Part shown: piece by piece, positions 50,432 through 57,219 of the stretch
How positions within the stretch are numbered: position 1 is the stretch's first letter
How the letters are laid out: every line of letters starts with the position of its first letter
Source of the DNA: Candidatus Heimdallarchaeota archaeon
GTDB taxonomy: Archaea; Asgardarchaeota; Heimdallarchaeia; Heimdallarchaeales; Heimdallarchaeaceae
NCBI GenBank assembly: GCA_030607575.1
Contig: JAUWJS010000003.1
Span: 1-60,026 of the forward strand
Direction: 5' to 3'
DNA: 60,026 nucleotides
Translations under genes and position numbers: made by a program
Notes under the pieces: generated by a model
The model's input: only the letters and a program-made list of their open reading frames with translations
What the model was told of the DNA's origin: nothing
Database searches by the model: none

Positions 50432-51187
50432 GTGAAAAAAATCCCATTTACGGAAAAAGATGTCAATGACATTGTCCAAATGATCAAAGGATCTAACTAC
50501 GTAGTAGTTTTTACTGGTGCTGGAATAAGTACTGAATCTGGGTTAGCTGATTTCAGAGGTAAAGATGGTATCTGGACAAGAAAAGAAAAGGGACTACCAC
50601 CTATAAGAGGAAAACATTTTGATGAAGTTAAACCGAATGCTGGACATCTTGCTCTAGTTGCTTTGCAGGACATGGGGGTCATCAAATTCTTAATATCTCA
50701 GAATGTGGATAATCTACATCTTAAATCAGGGATTAAACCTGAATTGATAGCTGAACTTCACGGGAACTATATGTTTATGAAATGTATAGAATGCGATACT
50801 CGATATAAGCGGGAAGAAATTGGTTGGGATCGAGAAATTCATGGAAGAGGTTTTAGAGCAGAGAAACAACTCGATCATCAACCAGTATGTCCAAATTGCA
50901 ATGGTAGAATAATTTCTTCTGTTGTTAATTTTAATGACCCTATGCCTGAAAAAGAAATGGCAATATCAAAGAAACACACTCAGAAGTGTGATCTACTGTT
51001 AGTAGTAGGCTCAAGTTTATCTGTTTTTCCTGCTGCAGGATTGCCTAGAAAAGCACAAAAGAATGGAGTAAAATTAATTATTATTAATATAGACTCTACA
51101 CCTTTGGATGAAAAAGCTGATATCAAGCTTGAGGTTAGTGCTGGAGAAATTTTATCAAAAGTAGTAGCAAAACTAAAAGAAAACTAG
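50432..51187 (+). CDS. Sir2-family NAD-dependent protein deacylase (sirtuin)
   Basis: VVFTGAGISTESGLADFRGKDGIW, ISQNVDNLHLKSG, ELHGNYMFMKCIECDTRY...CPNCNGRIISSVVNFNDPMPEKE; GTG start. Confidence 0.95.
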   Translation: MKKIPFTEKDVNDIVQMIKGSNYVVVFTGAGISTESGLADFRGKDGIWTRKEKGLPPIRGKHFDEVKPNAGHLALVALQDMGVIKFLISQNVDNLHLKSGIKPELIAELHGNYMFMKCIECDTRYKREEIGWDREIHGRGFRAEKQLDHQPVCPNCNGRIISSVVNFNDPMPEKEMAISKKHTQKCDLLLVVGSSLSVFPAAGLPRKAQKNGVKLIIINIDSTPLDEKADIKLEVSAGEILSKVVAKLKEN

Positions 51188-51246: not shown

Positions 51247-53262
51247 ATGACAAGTATTAGAGATACAATAAAGAAATTCTATTCTGAGTTAATTATGTTT
51301 ACAGTCTTGTTCTTATTCTTCTTTCAAGCTCTCTCTGATTTAGTAGAAACAATTTATGGTTTTGCTCTCTTAAACCTAGAACCTGATGAGAACATTCTGG
51401 GATTAGTGTTTCTTATTACTCCTGTTGTGCTTTTATTCTTCCGTAAAAGGCTGCCAGATAAGATATTAGTTATACTTGGAGAATTAATGATTTTATCTAG
51501 ATTACTAGATCCATTACTAAAGAGACAAGGACTTTTGGTTACTTCAGGTTTAGCAGTTGGATGTTTCTTAGTTTTCTTTCCAATTTATCTAACAAGGATG
51601 AAAAATGAAGAGAAAAGAACGAGTACAACTCTTGGTCTATCACTTGCAATTGCTGTTGCATTATCCATTTTGCTTAGATCTTTAAATTCCTCTCTTGACA
51701 TTTCGATGTATAGTTGGTATCAAGTGATAGGTTGGATTTTCGGTATAATTGCAGGAATTATGCTATTTGGGATGAAATTCAAAAGTGAAGGACAGAAGGA
51801 AATTCAAGAAAATATCAAAGAATCTTCAAAAGGAAGTGGTTTTGGTAAAATCCTTGCTTTGACTTCTGGACTTGTAAGCGTTTTCATTATTATTTGGTTT
51901 ACTTTTGCTAGTCCTACGGTTATTTCTAGATGGACTGAAGGGAATTATATTGGAATAACTCTAGGCATACTTGGAGTCTTATCTTTGTTTGTAATAGGAC
52001 AAATGCTTAAACCAGATCTGTTAAGCAAATTGAAAACATGGATGCTTTGGGTTTGGAATGGTGTTTTTGCTATGTCACTTTTCTTAACTGTTCTTGTTCA
52101 TCAACTTGGCTTTCCCGATGATTCAGCTTTATATCCTATAGTTGCTCCACAAACTGCCTGGTACTATCACATACCGCTAGCTATAATGATTCTTCTATCA
52201 CCAATAATCTATGTTAATTTTATGCTCCTAACAAGAGAAATAATCAAGATAAAACCCTCCACTAGGAAAATGGGTGGTAGTTTCGCATTAGCAGGTAGTC
52301 TATACCTTATCGTGATGATTTTTGTTCAAATATTGCCTAATATTTGGGGTTACCTTGAACCGATTAGTACAGGATTTAGAGATAAGTATTGGCTAGCTTT
52401 CTTCTTACCTGGCCTAGTATTGACTTTATCCATATTACTAGTTAAGAAAAGCTCGTTTGATTTAGGTAAACTATACACTAATAAAAGAAGAAATATCAGT
52501 GTAATAGTACTGCTCAGTACAATTTTCCTAGGAACATTAGTAGGTACCCTTGTAACTAAACCTTATCCAAACTATACACCAGATGGAGATTTGGTTATAA
52601 TGACATTCAATATTCAACAAGGAAGAAATGTTTCAGGAGATAGGAATTTTGATGGCCAAATTGCACTAATAAAACAAGTTGATCCTGATATACTTGGGTT
52701 ACAAGAATGTGACCCTACAAGAATTTCTGGAGGTAATCTAGATGTCGTTAGGTATTTCGCAGAAAAACTCAATATGTATTCATATTATGGCCCCAATACT
52801 GCTACTAACACGTATGGATGCGCAATCCTTTCTAAATTCCCCATATCGAATGCAATGTCATTCTTTATGTTCAGTGATGAAGAACAAATTGGATCAGCTC
52901 AAGCTGAAGTAACGTTAGATTCAACCGTTTACAATGTTTTTGTTAATCATCCCTCTGGTGCAACAAGTACAAAGATTTTACAACAAGAAGAGATGTTGAC
53001 CAGAGTAACTGGATTAAATGACGTCATTTTCATGGGTGATTTTAACTTCAGAAAAGATTCTGTTCAGTATAGTTTAACAACTGCTGTCTTAAATGATAGT
53101 TGGTATATTAGATGGCCTTCTGGTTTAGATACTTATGGATTCAATAGTACAGAAGAAATTGATCATATCTTTGTTAGTCCAGGGACAATTGTTTTAGATG
53201 CACGCTATATAATAACAGAACAATCAGACCACCCTGCATATTGGATTAGAATCGAAATCTAA
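51247..53262 (+). CDS. Multi-TM protein with C-terminal endonuclease/exonuclease/phosphatase (EEP) domain; CWH43/PGAP2IP-like architecture
   Basis: About 12 TM helices then MTFNIQQGRNVSGDRNFDGQIALIKQVDPDILGLQECDPTRISGGNLDVVRYFAEKLNMYSYYGPNTATNTYGCAILSKFPI...FMGDFNF...EEIDHIFVSPG...EQSDHPAYW. Confidence 0.88.
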   Translation: MTSIRDTIKKFYSELIMFTVLFLFFFQALSDLVETIYGFALLNLEPDENILGLVFLITPVVLLFFRKRLPDKILVILGELMILSRLLDPLLKRQGLLVTSGLAVGCFLVFFPIYLTRMKNEEKRTSTTLGLSLAIAVALSILLRSLNSSLDISMYSWYQVIGWIFGIIAGIMLFGMKFKSEGQKEIQENIKESSKGSGFGKILALTSGLVSVFIIIWFTFASPTVISRWTEGNYIGITLGILGVLSLFVIGQMLKPDLLSKLKTWMLWVWNGVFAMSLFLTVLVHQLGFPDDSALYPIVAPQTAWYYHIPLAIMILLSPIIYVNFMLLTREIIKIKPSTRKMGGSFALAGSLYLIVMIFVQILPNIWGYLEPISTGFRDKYWLAFFLPGLVLTLSILLVKKSSFDLGKLYTNKRRNISVIVLLSTIFLGTLVGTLVTKPYPNYTPDGDLVIMTFNIQQGRNVSGDRNFDGQIALIKQVDPDILGLQECDPTRISGGNLDVVRYFAEKLNMYSYYGPNTATNTYGCAILSKFPISNAMSFFMFSDEEQIGSAQAEVTLDSTVYNVFVNHPSGATSTKILQQEEMLTRVTGLNDVIFMGDFNFRKDSVQYSLTTAVLNDSWYIRWPSGLDTYGFNSTEEIDHIFVSPGTIVLDARYIITEQSDHPAYWIRIEI

Positions 53263-53399: not shown

Positions 53400-53756
53400 T
53401 TAGTACTCTTCCCCAACATCATCAGTAATTTTGTTATTTTCATGATCGTCAATATCTAAATGATTAATTCCTAATTTCCTCATTGCTTGAATAAGTTCAG
53501 CCTCAGTTAAATCTTCTGCTGGTCTTCCATAATAGTTTTCAATACGAGCTACATCCTCTTGATGAAACTTGTAATTATGTCTGCTATTTGCAAGAGCGAG
53601 AATTATCATAGAACCGAAAATGAATCTTCTTGTTCTTCTAATCATTCTTCTTTGACGTCTAAATATTCTTCTTTGACGTCGAATCATCCCTCGTCTAATT
53701 GCCCTTCTCATTGGACCTCTTAATGGTCTTCTCATTTGTCTTCTTCTTCGAGCCAT
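53400..53756 (-). CDS. Small protein with extremely Arg-rich N-terminus, hydrophobic segment and SHOCT-like C-terminus
   Basis: MARRRRQMRRPLRGPMRRAIRRGMIRRQRRIFRRQRRMIRRTRRFIFGSMIILALANS...DLTEAELIQAMRKLGI. Confidence 0.65.
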   Translation of the reverse strand: MARRRRQMRRPLRGPMRRAIRRGMIRRQRRIFRRQRRMIRRTRRFIFGSMIILALANSRHNYKFHQEDVARIENYYGRPAEDLTEAELIQAMRKLGINHLDIDDHENNKITDDVGEEY

Positions 53757-56124: not shown

Positions 56125-57219
56125 TCATCTCCAATCAAAATAGAATGATTCAACTTCTTCAGGAATTGGTACATTATTCATATTGAAGAGGTCTAAGTTG
56201 ATTTTTTTACCGAAGAAGAAGAATTTTGCTTTTTTCAAAGGTTTCATATCAAAATAAGGTATATATGGCGTCTGCAATCCTCCCCATCCACGTTCCTTGG
56301 ATGTTTGACTCAAATAATTTGCTAAATTACTAGCTTCTTTGGTGTTCAACCGATGTATATGGATCATATCTAACCAGCCAAAAGGAATTTTATTTCTGAA
56401 ACCAGCAAGATAAAATTCCCAAGCAAGCATAAATCCTTTGATTTTGCCTTCATTATCTTCGTGAACAACACAATTAACATTGGGATTCTTGAGCATCCAT
56501 TTGAAATCCTCCAGCTCAGGTACTATTGCTAACTGATTTCGCTTCACTTGCTCTTGAATGATTTCAAACATATCCAAAGTATCTTTCTCCTGATATTGTC
56601 TGATTTGGTCGGAGTTGATAGTTTTGATTTTCTCATAAAATTTGAACACTAGCTTCTCGTACCATCTTAGTTTAACCACTGTAGCAACTTTATCTACATC
56701 AAATGCTTTGATTACAAATTTGGTTAGAGTAACTACTCTTTGTAAAGGAATATTTTTATCCCTGGAAACAGCAGAAGAAACATCTATTCCATGTTGTTCA
56801 GGTTCATGAAGAGAAAATCCGCCATCATATCCCTTGGCTAAACCGATTTCAAATAACTTCTTTCCCATACCTTTAGCTAAACCTTTTTTCTGGTGTTGAG
56901 AATGAACACATAACCATGAAGGTATTGCAAATTTGTAAACTTTACCTTCAATTGAAAGATTTCGAGGAATTGAACCTAAGAATCCTACCATGTCTCCTGT
57001 TTGTTTGTGGATAGCTCTGATGAAAAGATCCTTATCAATAGATGGAGCTCCATACACTATGTTAAAAGTTTCTTCTGAAAATGCTATAGATGCACCTTCT
57101 ATCAATGCGCTTTCATCATTTATGAAAACTTGAGTGATGAGTTTCGAAAACTCATTAAATTTCTCTCTTTCAATTGTGAATTGTTCAATTACGTATTCTT
57201 CATGATTTGTGTTTTTCAA
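56125..57219 (-). CDS. Tandem-GNAT acyltransferase with N-myristoyltransferase-like features (tentative)
   Basis: GNAT 1: MVGFLGSIPRNLSIEGKVYKFAIPSWLCVHSQHQKKGLAKGMGKKLFEIG; GNAT 2: YQEKDTLDMFEIIQEQV...VNCVVHEDNEGKIKGFMLAWEFYL...GLQTPYIPYFDMKPLKKAKFFF. Confidence 0.8.
   Translation of the reverse strand: MKNTNHEEYVIEQFTIEREKFNEFSKLITQVFINDESALIEGASIAFSEETFNIVYGAPSIDKDLFIRAIHKQTGDMVGFLGSIPRNLSIEGKVYKFAIPSWLCVHSQHQKKGLAKGMGKKLFEIGLAKGYDGGFSLHEPEQHGIDVSSAVSRDKNIPLQRVVTLTKFVIKAFDVDKVATVVKLRWYEKLVFKFYEKIKTINSDQIRQYQEKDTLDMFEIIQEQVKRNQLAIVPELEDFKWMLKNPNVNCVVHEDNEGKIKGFMLAWEFYLAGFRNKIPFGWLDMIHIHRLNTKEASNLANYLSQTSKERGWGGLQTPYIPYFDMKPLKKAKFFFFGKKINLDLFNMNNVPIPEEVESFYFDWR

Follow-up and report, generated by a model that had tools for sequence, protein, structure and literature searches.

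An Asgard double-GNAT enzyme family whose closest known relatives, by sequence and predicted fold, are eukaryotic N-myristoyltransferases

The locus and its protein

The window, a 60,026-nt stretch of DNA from a Heimdallarchaeota assembly, carries on its minus strand a 364-aa open reading frame (56125-57219) that a preliminary description, made from the sequence alone, had taken for a tandem-GNAT protein resembling N-myristoyltransferase (NMT). The frame is present, and relatives share its start position, some with ATG; no N-terminal extension is thus missing from it. Comparison with close relatives gives dN of ~0.05 against dS of 0.37-0.46 (dN/dS ~0.1), as expected of a real gene under purifying selection, and the gene is conserved across genera. 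On the same strand, a DinB_2 gene begins 23 nt downstream of it; from an M28 peptidase gene it diverges. Elsewhere in the window (53400-53756) is a gene for a small, very basic protein with an Arg-rich N-terminus and no Pfam match, which close relatives have conserved in the same order. The NMT-like gene and its parts are:

56125..57219 (-): NMT-like double-GNAT gene, 364 aa, TTG start, stop at 56125-56127
56869..57171 (-): match to the Pfam NMT N-terminal domain (PF01233), residues 17-117, 38.1 bits (cut-off 25)
56902..56928 (-): beta-4 bulge AIPSWLCVH, residues 98-106, at the NMT oxyanion-hole position by alignment
56875..56895 (-): canonical GNAT acyl-CoA pyrophosphate loop HQKKGLA (Q/R-x-x-G-x-A), residues 109-115
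56758..56817 (-): FSLHEPEQHGIDVSSAVSRD, family motif after beta-5, residues 135-154, from the joint alignment
56185..56607 (-): second, degenerate GNAT half, residues 205-345, aligned to the NMT C-terminal half (HHalign E 1.2e-6)
56128..56184 (-): conserved C-terminal tail ending ...FYFDWR, residues 346-364, terminal Arg in 46/46

Two segments had been singled out as NMT-like, one with LCVH in the first half and a late one with FFF in the second. All segments quoted there occur in the protein. The former, VGFLGSIP...SWLCVHSQHQKKGLAKGMGKKL (residues 78-122), aligns without gaps to NMT VAFISAIP..., and the latter, AKFFFFGKKINLDLFN (residues 331-346), aligns to NMT LKFGPGDGFLNFYLFN. At the beta-4 bulge, F170-L171 of yeast NMT align with W102-L103; among 46 family sequences, V105 is invariant, P100 is found in 45, W102 in 41, and L103 and H106 in 39 each. 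The CoA loop that follows (H109 in 46/46, G113 in 43/46, A115 in 41/46) is of the canonical type, whereas NMT has RSKRLAP. The second half lacks a CoA loop but is strongly conserved in the family and contains conserved W267 and W282. The most conserved family-specific stretches are FxxEPEQHGID after beta-5, GWLDxxH, and, in the second half, GWxGxQTPYxPYF. Unlike NMT, the family has no N-terminal lid (~60-80 aa, ...FWxTQPV...): ~8 residues of the protein precede the first core strand.

How much of the NMT active site is left? In human NMT1, the catalytic map comprises Tyr180, Tyr192, Asn246, the Phe247-Leu248 backbone, Thr282, and the C-terminal carboxylate of Gln496 as base (PMC7048800). The counterparts of Y180/Y192/N246/T282 (Y103, Y115, N169, and T205 in yeast) are F32, F47, S101, and S136; the Y/Y/N/T set of NMT is thus replaced by F/F/S/S, and these positions vary among paralogs (S101 and S136 are each present in 28/46). 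S136, which aligns with the catalytic-platform Thr of NMT (ScT205/HsT282), sits in the motif after beta-5, in which, by contrast, G144 and E/D139 are found in 46/46. In short, the family retains the bulge position and the chain end of NMT but not its catalytic side chains. R364 aligns to the NMT chain terminus, and the chain end is fixed in both length and residue (46/46). A fixed length alone says little because some neighboring families share it, but an invariant last residue is notable; to judge from the alignment, this terminus may correspond to the C-terminal carboxylate of NMT. In a recent survey, NMT-type proteins are described as having an extended C-terminus that enters the active site, and HisAT-type proteins as ending right after the last core strand (PMC12219266); the conserved 19-residue tail that follows this strand in the Asgard family would fit the NMT type rather than the HisAT type.

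Relatives in sequence and fold

Pfam NMT scores above its cut-off (E 1.8e-9), whereas NMT_C (PF02799) stays below, with 13.7 bits against a cut-off of 27.9. Acetyltransf_9 is also above its cut-off (30.8 bits; cut-off 25), which makes the first half intermediate between canonical GNATs and NMT. Across 39 diverse members, at E<=0.1, NMT and Acetyltransf_9 each match 39/39 and NMT_C matches 16/39. When the single protein is searched against PDB with phmmer, NMT ranks first (E 1.5e-5, residues 22-264); when a 39-row family profile is searched against the whole PDB, NMTs make up the 35 top-ranking sequences (E 2e-13 to 5e-5), and the best non-NMT matches are AAC3-I (0.004), NAA30 (0.027), and Eis (0.16). 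With such E-values from Pfam, phmmer, and the profile, the resemblance to NMT is beyond chance. HisAT and archaeal Ta0821 are absent from the PDB matches of this profile up to E 10. In the reverse control, a profile of four NMTs, whose yeast sequence is identical to PDB 2p6e over 455/455 residues, finds no other GNAT in the whole PDB at E<=10. Across 393 genomes, PF01233 is above its cut-off solely in this family and in one 213-aa GNAT frame; in 14 control genomes, it is above in none.

The relationship extends to both halves. HHalign aligns residues 18-357 to residues 89-429 of yeast NMT (probability 98) and, taken by halves, gives E 6e-12 for the two N-terminal halves and E 1.2e-6 for the two C-terminal halves (probability 91; at most 1.4 in 60 column-shuffles of the C-terminal comparison). 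The cross-pairs of halves are weaker (E 0.05 and 0.002). Since the matching halves come in the same order, the tandem arrangement is common to the Asgard family and NMT, and the two GNAT-like halves seen at the outset are both colinear with those of NMT. The two Asgard halves are mutually more alike (probability 17-66) than the two NMT halves (0.1, with an NMT profile that is thin, at four sequences); a less derived state of the Asgard sequences would be compatible with this.

Fold comparison points in the same direction. AlphaFold2 models the 364-aa protein at pLDDT 71 and pTM 0.75, and a member from Candidatus Harpocratesius at pLDDT 67 and pTM 0.61. For both models, the best 50 Foldseek matches listed against PDB are all NMTs, aligned over nearly their full length (E ~1e-16 to 1e-15, TM 0.5-0.65 over 350-410 columns); Eis is not among these 50 for either model. 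In a library of viral models, giant-virus and entomopoxvirus NMTs head the ranking (TM ~0.6, mostly 0.5-0.66), while other GNATs, including ~300-aa phage proteins, appear from E 1e-5 with query TM <=0.4. The rmsd of the fold matches is high (5-10 A), as expected because the models contain low-confidence parts.

By sequence and predicted fold, then, the closest known relatives of this double-GNAT enzyme are the eukaryotic NMTs, and the archaeal NMT relative proposed at first draws support from the profiles, from both halves in order, and from two structure searches that put NMT ahead of Eis, FemX, and other double GNATs. What is common to the family and NMT (EC 2.3.1.97, PF01233 plus PF02799; eukaryotic and giant-virus) is the order of the halves, a catalytic N half with the beta-4 bulge and the LCVH segment, a degenerate C half, and the conserved C-terminal tail. 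What sets them apart, besides the lid, the active-site residues, and the CoA loop, is the shorter chain of the Asgard protein, its NMT_C score, and its identity of ~15% to any NMT. The protein is NMT-like; it is not proven to be an NMT.

To our knowledge, NMT is described as exclusively eukaryotic. The premise that the NMT-type fold is confined to eukaryotes, on which the preliminary description built, had already been broken: in a 2025 survey of AlphaFold DB, double-GNAT structures of the NMT type were reported, unexpectedly for the authors, from archaea as well as bacteria, with a warning against inferring activity from them (PMC12219266). The general kind was therefore already known. By the structural criterion of that paper, the Asgard proteins would likewise be prokaryotic double GNATs of the NMT type; its main text describes neither a sequence family nor a function for the prokaryotic structures. 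Literature searches, with bioRxiv and most subscription journals outside their scope, returned no paper joining Asgard with N-myristoyltransferase. As far as could be checked, there is no earlier description of the Asgard family or of its sequence-level tie to NMT, nor of its paralogs and residue differences. A sequence-level relative confined to Asgard in these searches is a concrete candidate for the origin of NMT, and it is a purifiable protein with which the origin of protein lipidation can be tested.

Predicted activity and acceptor

Family membership and the conserved CoA loop predict an acyl-CoA-dependent amine acyltransferase. We take the gene product, with a probability of roughly 65%, to be an NMT-type N-acyltransferase, soluble and dependent on acyl-CoA, whose Asgard family is related to eukaryotic NMT. 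In such an enzyme, the first half would bind acyl-CoA, and the backbone of W102-L103 would polarize the thioester at the bulge; the second half and the C-terminal tail would build the acceptor site, and, within a ternary complex, the thioester would come under direct attack by the amine. Candidates for the base are the terminal carboxylate of R364 and the conserved E139. Fatty acyl-CoAs are plausible, as the host genome encodes an acyl-CoA dehydrogenase. The evidence against this reading is the loss and variability of the NMT side chains, the missing lid, NMT_C below and Acetyltransf_9 above their cut-offs, the moderate confidence of the models, and the residue found at position 2 of Arf-like GTPases (see below).

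But what does the enzyme acylate? As acceptor, we somewhat favor a peptide or protein amine over a small molecule, and neither glycine specificity nor myristate is claimed. That an NMT-type fold here acylates an amino acid or another small amine, as HisAT/NAT16 does histidine, is nonetheless a serious possibility, if less than an even one. The side chains with which NMT grips the peptide N-terminus are not conserved, and the existence of several diverged paralogs in a genome suggests a range of acceptors. HisAT/NAT16 and archaeal Ta0821 (PDB 3C26) are likewise acyltransferases of double-GNAT build whose N half is active, and human HisAT, according to the 2025 survey, acts with such a fold on free histidine and even accepts myristoyl-CoA (PMC12219266). 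The HisAT type is marked by a beta-7/beta-8 hairpin with a Trp from the second GNAT; the conserved Trp residues in the second half of the Asgard protein are W267 and W282. Yet the PDB profile search that brought up NMT did not bring up HisAT or Ta0821 up to E 10, the layout of the tail looks NMT-type, and the strong conservation of the second half is what would be expected if this half reads a larger acceptor.

Could the family, then, consist of true protein N-myristoyltransferases, which transfer a long-chain acyl group to the N-terminal Gly of Asgard proteins and are ancestral to the eukaryotic enzyme? The specific relationship to NMT in sequence and fold, the invariant C-terminus, and the plausible supply of fatty acyl-CoA speak for this, and the F/F/S/S replacements and the absent lid against it. 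Arf GTPases are the best-known NMT substrates. The amphipathic N-terminus of Heimdall-group Arf-like GTPases (MSFLANLF...) resembles that of Arf1, but position 2 is Ser in 17 of the 20 that were sampled from the Heimdall class (L131-L150); no Gly2 Arf substrate was found among these 20 in genomes that carry the gene, and the sole Met-Gly protein is from a genome without it. The predominance of Ser2 speaks against classical myristoylation of Arf at glycine; other acceptors are conceivable. On balance, we regard true NMT activity as unlikely. Equally doubtful is the wider scenario in which Asgard archaea carry a pre-eukaryotic form of NMT and protein N-acylation with fatty acids already takes place in them, the eukaryotic enzyme being an inheritance from the archaeal host that later gained its lid and Gly specificity; if true, the enzyme behind eukaryotic protein myristoylation came from that host. 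The canonical CoA loop, together with the more similar halves, would fit an older state.

A generic tandem GNAT that merely resembles NMT, the main alternative named in the preliminary description, is very improbable and largely refuted. Eis/Acetyltransf_9 proteins have in common with the Asgard protein the tandem GNAT arrangement, the canonical CoA loop, and the Acetyltransf_9 match found in all 39 members compared, and single phage GNATs can bear the NMT label (A0A8S5MC07); however, the Eis/Acetyltransf_9 matches cover the first GNAT core only, for the C-terminal half the match is to NMT_C rather than to any C-terminal family of tandem GNATs, and Eis trails NMT in the PDB profile search (E 0.16 against 2e-13). 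Best matches to Eis, FemABX, or generic GNATs, the outcome that would have spoken for this alternative, did not occur, and it is rejected on the profile and fold rankings.

Carriers of the family

A search of Asgard genomes, proposed at the outset, finds the family in 39 of 228 genomes of the phylum and 9 of 62 genera, in the Heimdall and Loki groups and often as several paralogs. The host genome itself (2.49 Mb, 185 contigs) has a second copy, 45% identical, on another contig, and Candidatus Harpocratesius repetitus carries a member on a 4.36-Mb contig. All 20 relatives in a contig search are Asgard, labeled Heimdallarchaeota, Asgard group, or Lokiarchaeota. Widening to 393 genomes, of which, by the counts, ~165 would lie outside the phylum, added no members; a family search of IMG/VR and a plasmid tblastn gave no relative, and an IMG/VR search with NMT, aimed at wider NMT sampling, gave no matches. 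In the tree, the members group into a single clade that splits deeply into several paralogous branches and covers two Heimdall families, the Loki family, and another family besides. That a eukaryotic NMT was recently transferred into Asgard archaea or these assemblies, as the patchy distribution might suggest, is rejected as most improbable, given the low identity to any NMT, the single Asgard clade, which has deep internal splits and is separated from fungal NMTs by >5 changes per site, and the location of the genes among archaeal neighbors in many bins and on long contigs.

In the host genus, members of three different paralog clades have two genes in their vicinity, one for a Sir2 deacylase and one for a PGAP2IP/CWH43-like membrane protein that includes an endonuclease/exonuclease/phosphatase domain (50432-51187 and 51247-53262 in the window; L055, L056, and L060). 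The proximity of an acyltransferase to a possible deacylase is suggestive, but it is seen in a single genus, and the shared surroundings may reflect a tandem array with losses.

Several other loci are of separate interest. In one complete Heimdall-group genome, an NMT-like gene (L070:4000-6935; G008:C1:1138298-1141232) is interrupted by a 1.8-kb insert that holds a TnpB-like 500-aa ORF on the opposite strand; the split gene is probably a pseudogene. Near-identical members come from two genomes assigned to different taxonomic families (L032 in G022 and L033 in G063), and cross-contaminated bins are suspected. A more distant 365-aa relative (L071:2983-4077, G161), with 22% identity and weak NMT and Acetyltransf_1 matches, possibly links the family to other GNATs. 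Finally, two members stand in direct tandem at L063:2989-5303 (G055), pointing to local duplication.
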